A DNA stretch of 64,000 bases, taken from contig ML977023.1 of assembly GCA_010015675.1 (NCBI GenBank), positions 68,749-132,748 on the forward strand. Direction: 5' to 3'. How positions within the stretch are numbered: position 1 is the stretch's first letter; every line of letters starts with the position of its first letter. The stretch is from Byssothecium circinans (Eukaryota > Ascomycota > Dothideomycetes > Pleosporales > Massarinaceae). Below are positions 40,436 through 62,151 of the stretch, one piece after another. The notes beneath the pieces were generated by a model. That model was not told the DNA's origin. It did no database searches and saw nothing but the letters and a program-made list of their open reading frames with translations. The translations under genes and the position numbers were made by a program.

Positions 40436-43276
40436 CTACATAACCATGCAGCCAACACCGTACATTTGCTTCTCCACTGCACTGCGTATGTGGTACCAGT
40501 CAGCCCTGCGTTCTGCATACTCGTAAACCTCTTCCGCCCTGAAGATGCCGTGATACCGATCCGAATCGGCGATAATCGTGGCGATCTCTTTTGCATGGTT
40601 TGGATCGATGAGGAAGATTTGCGACAGCTCACGTAGTGCAGCGAAGTACTGCGTTAACGACTTGTTGCGGAGCGAGACGATGTACGTGTTGTACGCGTTC
40701 ATGTCGCTAGCCGCCTGTCAGTACAGGAACCCAAATAGTCGACGTTTCGTGTTGCTTTGCAACTTACCTGATAAGCTTGATTGCGCCGTCCACGCTGATC
40801 CGCTGTCGCTTCAGATGCTTGCAGAGTGTAGTGAACAGACGCAACCCGACCTCCTGGTTGAACACATCCAGCACCATCTTGTCTGTACTACCAACCAGCA
40901 TATTAGTGTGCGACGACACCATGTCAATAACCTTCTTGGCGGTCTGGCTAGGCCCAACGTCGTACACTTGCACTATGCCATTGGGCCCTACAGTAGGATT
41001 GAAGTCGCTTGGTAGCTGCAATGTGCCGCAAATGTACTCCACTTCATCCATGAGTACATCGATACCTTTGTTGAGTCCAGCTGCAACACTCTCGTCCAGC
41101 ATTTGTTCGAAGCGCTTCTTTTCTTTTGCGGCGGGACTGAGGAAGTCGTCTTGATCGGTCAATTTGGCGGCGACAAGCTCTTGCAGGTAGAACATATCCA
41201 CCATCTGTTGGATCAAGTCTCCAACATTGACGAGCTCGAGAAAGGCTACGAGAGGTGCAACACCCTCCTTGCTATGATCGGTGACCTCTCTAGGTCTGTA
41301 CGCAGCCATGTGGCCGACAGCTTTGTCAAAACCAGGCTTCACGTGACGCCCTCCGAGAGTCTGCAGTAAGCTAATGAACATGTTCTCACACTGTTCCTTG
41401 GCCTCCTCGCCGGACTGTCCTCCTAGCTTTACAAATCGAGCAGCCCGTTCCAAGCTTGCTTTGCATGTGTGGGTGAGATTAAGGGCAACCTCAATGCTGA
41501 ACAGACTGCGAATGCCTTCCAGACGAGAGTTCATGATAGCGGCTTTTGCGGCGAGTTCAGAGGTAGGCGCTTCGGGCGGCTGCGGCGACCCCGAACGTTC
41601 TCCCGGAATAGGTGTGGCAGACCGCGAGATAGGTTCTAGAGAACTACCATTCGCTGCCGGGGTGGATTTGGAGGTACTTGATGCCCCAAAGGACGGAAGT
41701 ACATTGACTGGTGCCATGACCACCTTCTTGAATGATGACAAAAAGTCACGCTTCGCAGCCTGACGGCTGACATTAGACATGAAGAAAGTTTCCGCGCTCT
41801 GCTCCTCATCTGTAAGTCGCTTCTCCCAAGTTTCCACTTCTGCGAGCGAGCGGCGCTTGAAATAGTCCGTCTCTTCCTGCAGATACAAGTCGACGTGCGG
41901 CTCGAAGCAGTGACACATAGTTCTGATAGCCTCTTCTTTAAAATCGGGTTTTGAACTCTTCGGTGGTTGAAGAGAAATAGCAAGCTGAATGGCTTGATCA
42001 AACACACCTGAGACAGCTTTCAGGTACACTTCTATGCCCACCTCGTGCGCTTCGTCAAGCAGAGATGTGACGTATTCCGAGATGACATCTTCAGCAACTC
42101 GCTCGAGGAATGATTGCATGATATCAATGGTGGGTGGAAAGACGCGGTCGATGAGCGCCGCCTCTTCGTTCAGAGTAACCGCCAGGCCTTTGAAGAAATC
42201 AAGTGACGGTTGGAGAGAGATGTGGCCGACGCCTGCTACTCGCAGACAGTCCGCGGGATTACCCAATTTCTCCTTCTCCAGCATTAGCGGGTGATTATGA
42301 ATGAAAGAATCGATAGCAGCCGCGCCTCCATTCAGAGCAACTAGGACGTGTGCGTATCTCTTCATCTTCCCGTCGAAGTCCTTCGTTTCATAACCCTGCT
42401 CAAATTCTCGTAGCGCGGCATTCTCGAAGATACCCGTCATTGTATCCAACCGTTGCTCACGCTGACTCCACCCTTGAGAGAAGTCGCTCTTCGCGAAGAT
42501 CTTCAGTTGTGCGAGCATGATAGCTTGCTGTTCGGGGTCGCGGTACGTGCGGAATAATATAGGATCGGTATGGCTCTGTGAGCGGGCAAGATCAAAGTAA
42601 TACGGCGCCACTGCCCCGTAGATCTTCCCATACTCTTGTCGTGCCATTCCACGTACAGACTTTGCCCGCGATATCGCTGTCAACGCTAGGTTGCGATCCA
42701 TGGTGTATGCTTGGGCAGTGGGAGACTTCACAGCCGGCGAAAGCGTCATGACATCGAACCCTTGATCCAATGTCGACGTTCTCGGCCTGGTTCTTTGATC
42801 GCTGCTGCTCCGCTGTTTTTCTTCTTCGAGGCCAGCGTCGAATAGCGTCGTGCTCATTCGCCCTGAGGCTTCCCCTCCTGGCGCAAATCCATTCGCTGTG
42901 CCGTTCAAGCCTGCCGCCGCCACTCTGCGCGCCTCCTCTCCCCGCTGTGCTTCTTGCTTCCTCCGCATAGTCTCTTCAAATCTTTGTCTTGCCTCTGCGT
43001 CGTTCCAGCAGCCCATGCTCTTGAGCCTTTGTATCCATCGTGTGTCATCGTAGACCATCTCTTGCATGCGTTTCGAGGTTCGGGCGAATCTGAACATGTC
43101 TGCAATGGGGAGGTAGTCCAGGATGGTGTTGATGAGCTCTGCATACATTAGCATTGTGTGACCTCGCTCTGGAGCAACATACCTGCTGGCAGGACCGCCT
43201 TCGAGTCTTCCACAAGCGACGCTGCCCGCAGCGAGGCCACGGGGAGCGCCCGCTTGAAATTCGATGTGGTTGCCAT
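40436..43276 (-). CDS. RCY1: Recyclin-1, F-box/Sec10 exocyst-like protein
   Basis: Rcy1 (Pof6 in fission yeast) acts in endosome-to-Golgi recycling of plasma-membrane proteins with Skp1. Minus-strand exons 43183-43276, 40768-43138 and 40436-40706 join in frame to 911 residues. The F-box lies across intron 1 (AVLPA|ELINTILDYLPIADMF, then RTSKRMQEMVYDDTRWIQRL). The large remainder is the Sec10-type helical region (GHISLQPSLDFFKGLAVTLN, VGDLIQQMVDMFYLQELVAA). The last four residues are CMVM, a CaaX box whose Met suggests farnesylation; yeast Rcy1 also ends in a CaaX box. Identity is firm. Confidence 0.94.
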
Positions 43277-43765
43277 TTTGAAGACAAGTTGTATCGAGCC
43301 GGTAAGCGGGAAGTTCAGTCGCAAGGATTCATCCTCGAAACTGACTGGAGGTGTGGGCGATGCTTAGCGTGCCAGGCTCGCGTGCTGTGTTGCGGAGGCG
43401 GGATGACGGTCCCGTACGAAACGAGAGCTGCGAAGTGGGTCAAGCTTCCGCGTCCAAACTTCAACCTCGCGACAACTTGTTTACTCCACACATTATCACC
43501 TCTTATCGCTATCACGTGTGCGAAGATGGGATATCACATGCAATTTCCAATGATCTCGAGATGCCTGCAGCTCACCGGAACAACGAGCGATTGCCGGCTC
43601 GCCACCCACAGACACGGATTGCATTAGCTATAAACACTATATACTCCTCCATTATAGACCATGCGCCCAGGAGACCATTCCCAACACATACATTTCCACA
43701 TCCTCTCCACCTCTTCTACATCAGCCCATTAGTCCACAACTCCACCACACTTCTCGCCTCATCGT
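43277..43765. other. Intergenic region between RCY1 promoter and CFEM gene end
   Basis: About 490 bp. The RCY1 promoter and the 3' flank of the CFEM gene. Nothing else is seen. Confidence 0.5.
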
Positions 43766-57628: not shown

Positions 57629-59632
57629 TTATTCCTCACTCGGCAAGGGTGGGAATAAAGCTCCTTGATACTTGGCTCCAACGTCGATCATAGGCTTCCC
57701 ATAGTCCAAGTCACAGCTAGGCTTGCAGTTCTCAAATGTCCGTCGTGATTCGTGTACACCAAGCAGATCGAGTAGCATCTTCGCCTTGTTCGGCATGTAT
57801 GGCGACAAAAGGATGCCCTGCATGCGAAGGGCTTCAGCAGCCAAGAATACTATCTTGTCCACCTCCTCGCCAGGCTCTCCGGGACCGAAATTGAGGATCT
57901 TGTCCCATGGAGCAGACATCTGGAAGAATTGGTTCGACTATGCGTGATCAGTAATGCCCTCAACAAGATGCCAGTTTCTGACTTACGCCTCGGACAAACT
58001 CGGCGATTAGCAATAGTGCCTTTCTCGGATCGTAAGTATCAAAAGCTTGTGCAACCTGCTCAGGTACTTTGAACAGCGTGTTCTGGTAGAAGCGGGCACC
58101 CGAGCCTTCCTGGGACCACTGGCCAGCTGTCCATGGACCTATTCGCTCTACCGCGCCGCGCACACTCCACTTCTTGCCTCTAGTCACTCGTGAAGCCAGG
58201 TTTCCTAAAGCTTGGTTAAGGAACTTGTTGTACAGGGTGATAATACGGATGTTGTCATAGTTGGAGTCATCTTGGATACCACCATCATGGGCTAGGTAAC
58301 AGCGCATGACATCCGGCCCGAAGCGGTCAAGGGCTAGGAATGGATCAACGACCCGTCCTGTTGATTTTGACATCTTGGAGCCGCCAAGTGTCCAATGGCC
58401 GTGTGTAAGAATCTTCTTGGGCAAAGGTAGGCCGAGTGCCATGAGGAATGCCGGCCAGTAGATACAGTGAAATCGCACGATATCCTTGCCTATTACATGG
58501 CAGTCTGCAGGCCATCCACCTGCGTGTTCTCGGTCAGGCGCCCAAGGATATCCCGCCTTCGTCGCATAGTTCATAAGGGCGTCTAGCCAAACATAGATGG
58601 TCTGCGTAGGGTCCTCGGGTACTCGAATGCCCCAAGACAGTCGATCCGACGGACGCGATATCGACAGGTCTTCAAGGCCTGCCTCAACCGCATGTACAAC
58701 CTCTTTCATGCGGTGTTCTGGTGTGATCCATTCGGGGTTGGCCTTGTAGAAGTCAAGCAGGCGGTCACGGAAGGAGGACAAGCGGAAGTGGTAGTTCGTT
58801 TCAGACGACCATTCGACCTCGCCTCCCGTCTCTATCGATGCCTGCAGATTGTCAGCGAGCTGATCAGTTCCCCCAATGGTGCTACATGCCATGATTTTGC
58901 GACCCGTAGGCGGGTCGATGAACGGTTGCACACCCGACTGGGGATAGAAGGCCTCGTCCGTCACGGAGTACCAGCCCTCATGTTTCTCAGTGTAGATGTA
59001 GCCCTTCTCTTTCAGCAAGAACTACCAACCATCAGCCTCTACCGCAGTTCCTTTGCGATGGATGCTCATACCCATGCATATTCCACCGCATCCTTGTGCT
59101 CCCTGTCCGTCGTCCGCACGAAGTGATCGTGGGTAATGAGTGCTTTCTGTGCGAGGTCCTTGAAGATGGCGGCACCCTTATCGCAGAAGAGTTTCGGTTC
59201 AATGCCAGCTTTGGCAGATGCTCGCTGGACCTTCAAGCCGTGCTCATCGGTGCCCGTGCAAAGTATCGCCTTTTCTCCTTTCAGCACCTTCCATCGCTTG
59301 AGAATGTCGGTGAGGACCATAGTATAGAGGTGGCCGACATGAGGGGCGGCATTGACGTAGAATATCGGCGTGGTGATGTAGAACGGCTTCTGCTCGGGGG
59401 AGGACTGCGTTGCTACATGTCGAACACCGGTGCCGCGCGCCTGGCATGCTCCGCAAATCCAAGCAGATTTCCGAATTGGCGGTGAATGTAACCGCCTCGC
59501 AGCCGGCGCTGTCAGATTGTAGAGGCGTGAGTGCATCGTTGCAACAATATGCATCTCATCGCGAGCAGCTTCGGTAATCCGCAACTTTTGGCTGACTAAG
59601 ACGCCAGACATCAACCACATCTTGTTCCACAT
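57629..59632 (-). CDS. MSM1: Mitochondrial methionyl-tRNA synthetase
   Basis: A class-I synthetase charging mitochondrial tRNA-Met. Minus-strand exons 59072-59632, 57987-59021 and 57629-57937 join in frame to 634 residues. Seen are the HIGH-type signature in NAAPHVGHLYTMVLTDILKR, TGTDEHGLKVQRAS, TIYVWLDALMNYATKAGYPW, GKDIVRFHCIYWPAFLMALG, and the KMSKS loop in LGGSKMSKSTGRVVDP. The frame opens with ATG at 59632, but Met27 (59554) or Met33 (59536) may be the true start: MHSRLYNLTAPAARRLHSPP has the Arg-rich, acid-free look of a matrix presequence. The C-terminal anticodon-binding part is complete. Confidence 0.95.
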
Positions 59633-60702
59633 GTACTATTTCCGCTACTCGTTACCAGCACCCGTTCATCGACGCATCAACGGCTTCATAATAGATTTAA
59701 TTAGGAACGGATACTCCGATTCAAGACTCGTATCTGTACCTAATCGCATTACTGCGTCGCTTCTTAGTCGATCTCCCCATCCGCCTGCGCCGGTGTCCTC
59801 CTGCTTCCACGACACTGCACGCTACCCTCATCTAGTAACTGTACGTCACAAGTGAGCGTTCAAGGTAAAAAGAAAGAGATAGAAAAGGTGGACAGGAAGT
59901 TCTGAATTCGATGGATTGCGGATGCGCACAGTATTGAACCGCTGGTGGAAGGCGCTTGACAGTATGAGAGCCCACCACTTACCCTTTCCTGAAGCTCCAA
60001 TGCGAGGCCGGACATTCAGCGACCCCATGCACTTCTTCTCATTACTTCGAAAACTTACCCTTACTACTGTTCATCCGCAATGTTAGATACGGGTAAGACG
60101 GGGTTCGCTCGCTGCCAAGGCTTTCTCCCTATTAATCCTATTCAGACCTCCAAACGGCAATCCATCACGACTTGCCTCATGCACTCCCTTGTCTACGCCA
60201 GCACACATCTCGAACCTATTCAAATTCAGCAATACATCCTTTGTATGGATATCAACCTCGTGGCCCTACGCCTTCATCCAAACATTCTGGAACCCCATGT
60301 GTTCTTTGTCCTTACCCCTTCCGCGACGCACTCCATCCTAACCTCTCGCTTGCCTCCATCGATTTGGAGCAGTTCATTGTGTCGCCTTCACCATGATCCC
60401 TCAATAGGCCTCAATAGGCTTTTCTATTGGACGTTGCGTGTCCCCCGGTACCAATCAGGACTCTATTCAGACTATTCAGACTGTTCATGTGAGTTCCCTT
60501 TATTGCTTCTATTGAGCCCCCCGACGCCAATCGGTCTACATCTCTCTTTATCTTCTACTTTCCTTCGTGGGCTATAAATCTTCCCTCCTTGCTCGCACAT
60601 TTCAATCGATATCGACCTCCACTCCAGTCTATCTTTCAGATCCGAGTCGACACTCCCAACTATCGTACCACTCTTTCGAAACTTACCATCCACACCTTCG
60701 GC
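59633..60702. other. Intergenic region with the promoter of the repeat-peptide gene
   Basis: About 1.07 kb between divergent genes. Beyond the TATA box at 60573, the stretch 60460-60490 repeats ATTCAGACT twice (60464, 60473). A 110-nt pyrimidine-rich leader precedes the ATG at 60703. Confidence 0.55.
60573..60578 (+). promoter_or_regulatory. TATA box of the repeat-peptide precursor
   Basis: TATAAA in GCTATAAATC, 130 nt upstream of the ATG at 60703. A strong consensus TATA box suggests an inducible, high-level promoter, as is common for pheromone and secreted-peptide genes. Confidence 0.6.
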
Positions 60703-61092
60703 ATGAAGATCAACGCCGCCATCGCCATCGCTATCCTCAGCGCCACCACCTGGGCTGCTGCCGTCCCCAACGCCGACGCCCGCAAGTTCGTTGGTCAGCC
60801 CAACTCCAAGCGCGACGCTGAAGCCGATGCCCGCAAGTTTGTTGGCCAGCCTAACTCCAAGCGTGATGCCTTCAGGTCTCGCCAGAGGAAATTTGTCGGC
60901 CAGCCCAACTCCAAGCGCGATGCCGAAGCCGATGCCCGCAAGTTCGTCGGCCAGCCCAACTCCAAGCGCGACGCTGAGGCTGATGCCCGCAAGTTCGTCG
61001 GCCAGCCCAACTCCAAGCGCGACGCTGAGGCTGATGCCCGCAAGTTCGTCGGCCAGCCCAACTCAAAGCGTGATGCTGAGGACGATGAATAA
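60703..61092 (+). CDS. Kex2-processed secreted repeat-peptide precursor, alpha-pheromone-like
   Basis: A 129-residue single-exon precursor. Residues 1-20 (MKINAAIAIAILSATTWAAA) form a signal peptide. Six copies of KFVGQPNS follow, starting at residues 28, 45, 63, 80, 97 and 114, each followed by Lys-Arg for Kex2. The spacers are VPNADA, DAEADA, DAFRSRQ, then DAEADA three times; all but the third consist of X-Ala or X-Pro dipeptides as used by Ste13. Trimming would release RKFVGQPNS or a shorter form. The acidic tail is DAEDDE. Alpha-pheromone precursors of ascomycetes have this layout and many carry GQP in the core (for example WCTWxGQPCW in Fusarium, from memory), but Trp and Cys are missing here. 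A RiPP precursor is less likely: the core has no Tyr, and no DUF3328 or tyrosinase gene is in the window. Confidence 0.8.
   Translation: MKINAAIAIAILSATTWAAAVPNADARKFVGQPNSKRDAEADARKFVGQPNSKRDAFRSRQRKFVGQPNSKRDAEADARKFVGQPNSKRDAEADARKFVGQPNSKRDAEADARKFVGQPNSKRDAEDDE
60784..61071 (+). repeat. In-frame tandem repeat, six units of the peptide precursor
   Basis: Units after the first start at 60814, 60865, 60919, 60970 and 61021; they are 51 nt long except the third (54 nt). The last three are nearly identical at the DNA level, with units 5 and 6 differing at two synonymous sites. Such arrays gain and lose copies by slippage or unequal crossing-over. Confidence 0.9.
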
Positions 61093-62151
61093 ACGCCTCA
61101 CCTCCGAGACCTTGGCTCTGGCTTGACTTTTGGCGTGTTGCAAACTGTTTTTCTTCTCTTCGGACTTCTACATTATCCACTTCTCAACATCTGGCTTCTT
61201 TCCTCAAGGACTTCGATAAAGGGCGCTTTCCGAATGTCGTTCACACCACTACCGACAAGACCATCACCACAACGATTTTTAGACTACGCTGCATCCGATG
61301 CTCCGAGGACCCGTGTATATTTCCACACCATTCTGGTCTATTATCTATTAAACTCTGGCTCGAATTGTTACGTGCCTCCACCGGGAGGGCATTTGTATCT
61401 ATGAGCCGGCCGGTTCTTACATCAGCCTTTGGCATCTCGCGAAAAGTTTTCGTTACTCATTGCAGTACCGCGGGAACGCACGCTTTAGGCTGGGATATCT
61501 GCTATCATATGATTGATGGAGTTATTTGCTGGCCTTTTGAATATCTTTACCTTTTATCATATCAATAGACGATCCTACCTTGGACTTCTTACGTGTGCCT
61601 TGATTGCTGTGGGGTTTTCGTGATGAATGACCGGTATCTGGCAGTGAGGCTGGGATATTCGCTGCCTGACACTACTAACTCGATGCCTTGCTCTACTGAC
61701 CTGGTGTACCGTCCCATCAATCTTGTATCCTCACACGATGTGATATGCACACTTACCCCTGCAGTAGCTTCCAAAATACCACACTATACTGGACACTTCC
61801 TGCCTTCCGTTATATCCCCATCTCCCAGCGTGTACTCCAAGTCCCACTTGAACCCGCATTCTCTCGTCCCACGACTCCCGTCACAATCCATATCTTTCGC
61901 ATGCTCAGACTCAGGTCCAAGGCCAAAAAACGTACGCAGCACCTGACTTACACCACCCAAACCAAGATCTGGGAACCCCTTGCTACCCAAGCTCCCCAAC
62001 ATACGATCATAATCATCATATTGGGAGGGTTCTTTTTTCTATTTATTTATTTACCTGTGCTATCAAACTCGCCTCCGCGGCGGCGTATCAACGTCCGTGC
62101 AACTGAGGGGGGACCTTTTATTTAACGCATGAACTTGTTATGTGATCGCCA

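Follow-up and report, generated by a model that had tools for sequence, protein, structure and literature searches.

Within a 64,000-nucleotide stretch of Byssothecium circinans DNA (the window), a short gene encodes six copies of one small peptide behind a leader, and the question it raises is whether a peptide that has neither cysteine nor tryptophan is an alpha-type mating pheromone. NCBI taxonomy places B. circinans in the Pleosporales, suborder Massarineae, family Massarinaceae. A sequence-only reading of the window had left two choices, a divergent alpha-pheromone or a secreted signal belonging to a new class. The first is upheld by a homologue from Periconia that bridges to known pheromones, by a leader like those of two proteins named as alpha-factors (P0030 and P0032), and by the presence of STE2 and MAT1-1 in the genome; the second is not, as no sign of a new class was seen. 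Positions 60703-61092 very probably encode the precursor of the B. circinans alpha-type mating pheromone. Its fully Cys-free FVGQP form is, judged by motif, most likely intermediate between the Cys type and the Cys-free type of pheromone.

The gene runs from ATG to TAA on the plus strand as an open reading frame of 129 amino acids plus stop, with no need of an intron. Copies of KFVGQPNS start at residues 28, 45, 63, 80, 97, and 114, and Lys-Arg follows directly in 6/6, as the sequence-only reading had described. The predicted signal peptide that it placed ahead of the repeats is likewise supported, both by hydrophobicity on inspection and by the 17 of the first 22 residues shared with the leader of the homologue P0002. 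The features of the gene and its immediate surroundings are as follows.

57960..59635, minus strand: methionyl-tRNA synthetase exons (two ORFs match Pfam PF09334), with transcription directed away from the precursor
60573..60578, plus strand: candidate TATA-like box, an exact TATAAA 130 bases 5' of the ATG and the sole TATAAA in 60403-60702
60703..61092, plus strand: predicted alpha-type pheromone precursor, intronless ORF (homology to P0002, BLASTP 51/109 identical)
60703..60762, plus strand: signal-peptide-like N-terminus, residues 1-20, MKINAAIAIAILSATTWAAA
60763..60780, plus strand: VP-NA-DA, X-P/X-A dipeptides before repeat 1, provided that signal peptide cleavage follows Ala20 (processing predicted)
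60781..60807, plus strand: repeat 1, RKFVGQPNS, then KR
60832..60858, plus strand: repeat 2, RKFVGQPNS after KR-DA-EA-DA, then KR
60886..60912, plus strand: repeat 3, RKFVGQPNS after KR-DAFRSRQ (resembling the lead-in of the Periconia Cys-free repeat), then KR
60937..60963, plus strand: repeat 4, RKFVGQPNS after KR-DA-EA-DA, then KR
60988..61014, plus strand: repeat 5, RKFVGQPNS after KR-DA-EA-DA, then KR
61039..61065, plus strand: repeat 6, RKFVGQPNS after KR-DA-EA-DA, then KR and an acidic tail, DAEDDE

The repeats, also detected as a direct repeat, are spaced 51, 54, 51, 51, and 51 bases from start to start. The uniformity ascribed to them applies to the six identical cores and not to the lead-ins, which are DAFRSRQ in repeat 3 and DAEADA or VP-NA-DA in the others. 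Searching the whole 48.4-Mb genome with a degenerate DNA motif encoding Gly-Gln-Pro-Asn-(Ser-like)-Lys-Arg gives matches at these six sites alone. Cysteine is absent from the entire precursor. Two long repetitive open frames lie antisense to or overlap the precursor (60472-61062, minus strand, and 60827-61126, plus strand); both are, to judge from the sequence, mirror effects of the repeat, and the antisense frame has no Pfam match.

We infer the processing of the precursor from its sites and from knowledge of the family; secretion, receptor binding, and control by mating type are predicted likewise. The precursor would enter the secretory pathway, a Kex2-type protease would cut after every Lys-Arg, a carboxypeptidase would remove the C-terminal Lys-Arg, and a Ste13-type dipeptidyl aminopeptidase would trim the DA-EA-DA (or VP-NA-DA) leaders. 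The X-A/X-P spacers are in Ste13 register in five of the six repeats (repeat 1 being counted on condition that signal peptide cleavage follows Ala20), so that trimming would halt exactly before Arg and give the nonapeptide RKFVGQPNS as the main product. Repeat 3 is out of register, with DA followed by FRSRQ, and because its lead-in differs, the N-terminus of its product probably differs too; a longer form, perhaps FRSRQRKFVGQPNS, would be expected. The calculated [M+H]+ values are 1032.5585 for RKFVGQPNS, 876.4574 for KFVGQPNS, and 1706.92 for this possible longer form. RKFVGQPNS would be recognized by the Ste2 receptor of the opposite mating type, attracting growth and fusion, and recognition would use the Gly-Gln turn retained from Cys-containing relatives.

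Two protein searches provide the comparative evidence. With the precursor as query, 10 matches at E <=1 were obtained among 6009 candidates, and with a two-sequence alignment as query, 32 matches at E <=10 were obtained among 7996 scored candidates; together the searches yielded 34 proteins. The kinship with pheromones suspected from the peptide gained support here, in the nearest, bridging homologue, P0002. This 95-residue protein of Periconia macrospinosa (Massarineae, Periconiaceae), DM02DRAFT_614486, is annotated only as a hypothetical protein and matches the precursor with an E value of 8.2e-9 in the protein search and 2e-19 in BLASTP. Its leader, MKLNAAIAVAILSATTYAVALP, precedes three repeats, CRFVGQPC, RKFVGQPV, and a C-terminal WCRFVGQPC, the last of which fits the Cys-type alpha-pheromone pattern. 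Another protein, P0011, has three copies of WCRYVGQPC, one residue from the WCRFVGQPC of P0002, and is assigned to the pheromones by motif. Both are thus recognized as pheromone precursors by their WCR[FY]VGQPC repeats and not by annotation. The peptides form a graded series, from WCRYVGQPC (P0011) through WCRFVGQPC, CRFVGQPC, and RKFVGQPV (P0002) to RKFVGQPNS, and by this sequence measure P0002 is a bridge between the Cys-type pheromones and the B. circinans gene. The two precursors share FVGQP cores, Lys-Arg sites, and much of the leader, and the Cys-free repeat of Periconia, which follows GFSSGQ, resembles repeat 3. They differ in composition: Periconia has three FVGQP repeats, two of them Cys-type, whereas all six of B. 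circinans are uniformly Cys-free.

Since Kex2/Ste13 spacers can themselves generate matches, they were masked and each of the 34 proteins was scored against 200 shuffles. The masked z was 31.5 for P0002, 13.4 for P0015, 10.3 for P0011, and 5.8 for P0022, and ranged from 8.6 to 10.8 in the Cys-free proteins with similar leaders (P0024, P0027, and P0029-P0032; 8.7 for P0030). The remaining 24 proteins, including all 21 with an MF_alpha_N domain, scored 4.0 or less. Leader identity divides the 34 proteins into much the same groups: after P0002, it is 14/22 in P0030 and 11-12/22 in P0024, P0027, P0029, P0031, and P0032, and at most 9/22 in the other 27. P0030 and P0032 are named "mating pheromone alpha-factor" by a source. 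That P0002, P0011, and the similar-leader proteins stay high after masking supports the pheromone reading. P0001, an MF_alpha_N-type protein with the best E value (1.8e-19), was rejected as nearest relative: its match rests on KR-DAEA spacers and its z falls to 0.4 once they are masked, and the yeast-type matches were therefore given no weight. Yeast MF-alpha precursors (PF05436, PF04648) thus resemble the precursor in the type of spacer, KR-DAEADA, which is the source of the database matches, but show little or no similarity beyond it. The precursor has no match to the Pfam pheromone models, these two included. Because it is absent among the protein-search matches, the B. circinans gene itself has apparently not been annotated publicly.

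Two further sets of matches call for separate mention. P0015 (162 residues, from a 7.5-kb metagenome contig) has three (S)GQRK[FS]VGQP repeats, lacks Lys-Arg sites, and has the ten residues SGQRKFVGQP in common with the Periconia protein. It was set aside as a relative; by rough reasoning the resemblance is probably due to chance, since a shared ten-residue word is unsurprising among the 5.8 billion proteins searched. Its high score in the absence of Lys-Arg sites means that the FVGQP core alone is weak evidence. P0024 and P0027 have leaders like that of the precursor (12/22) and a Cys-free peptide, GLRYTRWRPAGTIFS, on sequence seemingly one more variant of Cys-free pheromone, with neither published Dothideomycete motif.

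Alpha-pheromones of the Dothideomycetes have been divided into two subgroups, which the main text and the Fig. 6 legend of the source number (I and II) oppositely (PMC6339444). Cys-free peptides of the form PYG[L/M]P[I/V]G are reported there for three plus ten species of Pleosporales, among them Alternaria brassicicola, Phaeosphaeria nodorum, and Pyrenophora tritici-repentis, and Cys-type peptides for 13 other Dothideomycetes (PMC6339444). A Cys-free pheromone would therefore not be a first for filamentous ascomycetes, and Cys-freeness itself is not new. The novelty, at the level of motif, lies in FVGQPNS: this form retains the GQP turn, has lost Cys and Trp, and fits neither known class. RKFVGQPNS shares with the PYG[L/M]P[I/V]G class the order of fungi, the lack of Cys, and a G-x-P core, but it keeps GQP, has no P-Y before the G and no terminal G, and ends in FVGQPNS where that motif would lie. 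Of the two classes, the Cys type is the nearer. P0029-P0032, with leaders of similar make-up, are placed near the PYG[L/M]P[I/V]G class by motif. The Cys type (e.g., WCTWRGQPCW of Fusarium and WCGRPGQPC of the Sclerotiniaceae) has the same precursor anatomy and the same GQP turn, and ARKFVGQPNS does align without gaps to WCTWxGQPCW with all Trp and Cys positions replaced, as had been claimed. In contrast to that type, however, RKFVGQPNS has no Trp and an Asn-Ser C-terminus, and the hallmark pair of cysteines, with six residues between them around GQP, is not found.

Work on the Fusarium oxysporum alpha-pheromone bears on whether such a peptide could function. According to that study (PMC7289986), activity requires the Gly6-Gln7 turn and is absent from the disulphide form, and a D-Ala1,2 analogue retained Ste2-dependent chemotropism and failed in a quorum assay. 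Loss of the cysteines thus need not abolish function, and some functions depend on the N-terminal residues. By analogy, it is plausible that a Cys-free peptide retaining the GQP turn is a working ligand. Neither KFVGQPNS, FVGQPC, nor a B. circinans pheromone was found mentioned in the literature searched, mostly non-subscription full texts, and nothing on Pleosporales was found in the available parts of two receptor-peptide screens (PMC6265332, PMC12582325).

The genome holds the machinery that a pheromone would need. STE2 is represented by PF02116 matches (E 9.4e-74 and 1.2e-5) in an intact frame of 382 amino acids with one GT-AG intron; the spliced product matches B. circinans CC80DRAFT_158812 with 100% identity across 382 residues and is 71% identical to the Ste2 of Periconia. 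A Ste2 is thus present as cognate receptor, and binding of RKFVGQPNS to it is putative. STE3 is matched by PF02076 (E 3.5e-53), the matches being interrupted by stops, presumably introns. A MAT1-1 alpha box (PF04769, E 4.0e-36) lies on contig C10; among 10 ORFs picked in the MAT region, one near the alpha box belongs to the endonuclease/exonuclease family, and we infer that it is APN2, a gene that often flanks MAT in Pezizomycotina (PMC10569646). As regards homothallism, the HMG-box search, which gives a lower bound, had seven matches in the genome and none on C10, where only MAT1-1 was seen. The Kex2-type P domain has one match, with a model that also matches 1/14 control genomes. The Ste13-type DPPIV_N domain has two full-length matches and one partial match, and is not specific, as it occurs in 5/14 control genomes, all bacterial or archaeal. 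The intact STE2, the STE3 match, the alpha box, and the Kex2- and Ste13-type domains support the pheromone reading.

A separate canonical Trp/Cys pheromone gene would have spoken against that reading; it was sought with three patterns and with P0002 as query, and none was found. The pattern WCxxxGQxC had 5 matches in the genome (1 in the reversed control), CxxxGQPC had 12 (4), and GxPxG-KR had 2 (1), so that each forward pattern outnumbers its control. All 19 matches were translated in frame and searched for a signal-like start and repeated Lys-Arg peptides, and none was pheromone-like; such patterns miss pheromones of other shapes and any whose motif is split by an intron or falls in a sequence gap. 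The match that was hardest to dismiss, L008 (G000:C9:182018-182044, minus strand), reads LWCFQFGQSCKKRR, with LWCFQFGQSC followed at once by KKRR; it lies, in single copy, in a 75-residue open stretch lacking an upstream Met, and might conceivably be an exon. The P0002 query, at E values up to 10, found only the gene at 60703-61092, which adds support to the pheromone reading.

These searches bear on the alternative that survives best, in which the gene encodes a Kex2-processed repeat protein that has kept or borrowed a pheromone leader and now acts outside mating, at the hyphal surface or in quorum or host signaling, the true pheromone being encoded elsewhere. Many non-mating repeat precursors are described in two reports (PMC6339444, PMC7329392), and the peptide has lost both Cys and Trp. 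This alternative is nevertheless unlikely: no other pheromone candidate emerged from the three patterns and one protein query, though the STE2 frame is intact, and the nearest homologue holds Cys-type pheromone repeats within the same precursor. Points against a mating pheromone include the missing Pfam match, the joint absence of Cys, Trp, and PYGxPxG, and the annotation of P0002 as only hypothetical.

The loss of conserved Cys and Trp could also mean that mating has ceased in this fungus and that its pheromone gene is decaying. The DNA of the repeats argues otherwise. The six 30-base units (KFVGQPNSKR) vary at seven columns, and all seven are synonymous, against a synonymous fraction expected under random change of 0.22, rising to 0.28 when transitions receive a weight of 4 (P about 3e-5 to 1e-4, columns treated as independent). 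This silent divergence means that the repeats are old enough to have diverged while the peptide was kept, and the peptide appears to have been maintained by selection and not to be simply the outcome of recent DNA copying. Six identical peptides despite seven synonymous changes, along with the intact STE2 frame, make decay very unlikely. The mating pheromone reading, by contrast, draws support from the same synonymous pattern and from the Ste13 register of 5/6 repeats.

The surroundings of the gene were scanned through 19 distinct ORFs chosen from window position 40767 to about 9.6 kb beyond the window end, a scan that small exons may escape. About 8 kb upstream of the precursor is a gene for a 2OG-Fe(II) oxygenase, and an ORF at 40767-43328 (minus strand) combines an F-box with a Sec10-like exocyst domain. 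In Ceratocystidaceae, alpha-pheromone loci have no consistent synteny (PMC13037118). A dikaritin-type RiPP precursor (as for ustiloxin or phomopsin), whose repeats would be cyclized by UstYa-like enzymes, shares the gross anatomy of leader and Kex2 repeats but was rejected as barely credible, because DUF3328/UstYa, tyrosinase, and other pathway tailoring domains are absent from the ORFs scanned, the core has no Tyr, and the spacers keep Ste13 register, a feature that according to PMC6339444 is not predicted in the precursors of ustiloxin and phomopsin. Mating precursors, for their part, are reported not to be accompanied by DUF3328 genes (PMC7329392).

For the mating pheromone reading, repeat 3 gives a clue to how the peptide arose. 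Its lead-in, AFRSRQR, is identical at 4/7 positions to the GFSSGQR of Periconia (BLOSUM62 sum 17), and the other 17 of the 18 B. circinans-Periconia repeat pairs have sums from -15 to 3; both MAFFT and BLASTP paired repeat 3 with the Periconia Cys-free repeat unprompted. This match suggests that the Cys-free repeat is older than the split between Periconia and Byssothecium.

A quick Ste2 tree was built from 39 named proteins out of 120 listed of 426 found, taking one per species for spread and leaving out unnamed proteins and some other named species. Byssothecium groups with Massarina (SH-aLRT 96), these with two Periconia (100), and all of them within a nine-member clade (99), which we take to be the Massarineae. 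Parastagonospora, Alternaria, and Pyrenophora fall in a separate 12-member clade (100), presumably the Pleosporineae. Forcing Byssothecium into the latter clade was rejected (AU p 3e-6, or 3e-4 with Massarina added), the tested groupings having been named after the tree was seen. Because Periconia keeps Cys-type repeats and Byssothecium lies outside the Parastagonospora-Alternaria-Pyrenophora clade, the tree suggests that Cys was lost in the Byssothecium line separately from its loss in the PYGxPxG group; a single loss with regain of Cys-type repeats in Periconia is possible instead.

A tentative scenario, drawn from two precursors only and in our judgment possible but somewhat short of probable, is one of takeover. 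The common ancestor of Periconia and Byssothecium would have carried one F-x-S-x-Q-RKFVGQP repeat among Cys-type repeats, and in the Byssothecium line the Cys-free repeat would have replaced all others, with the receptor following and with a loss of Cys separate from that of PYGxPxG. The resulting Cys-free ligand would escape the disulphide-based inactivation described for the Fusarium alpha-pheromone. If this is true, simultaneous production of two ligands from one precursor would offer a route by which a mating signal can change without being lost.

A peptide pheromone and its receptor have to evolve in step, which raises the question of how a ligand can lose key residues without sterility. 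The gene provides a pheromone candidate for the suborder Massarineae that is apparently absent from annotation. Periconia, with its mixed repeats, and B. circinans, with repeats that are all Cys-free, look like consecutive stages in related families, and the intermediate would therefore be directly testable with synthetic peptides and the two receptors.
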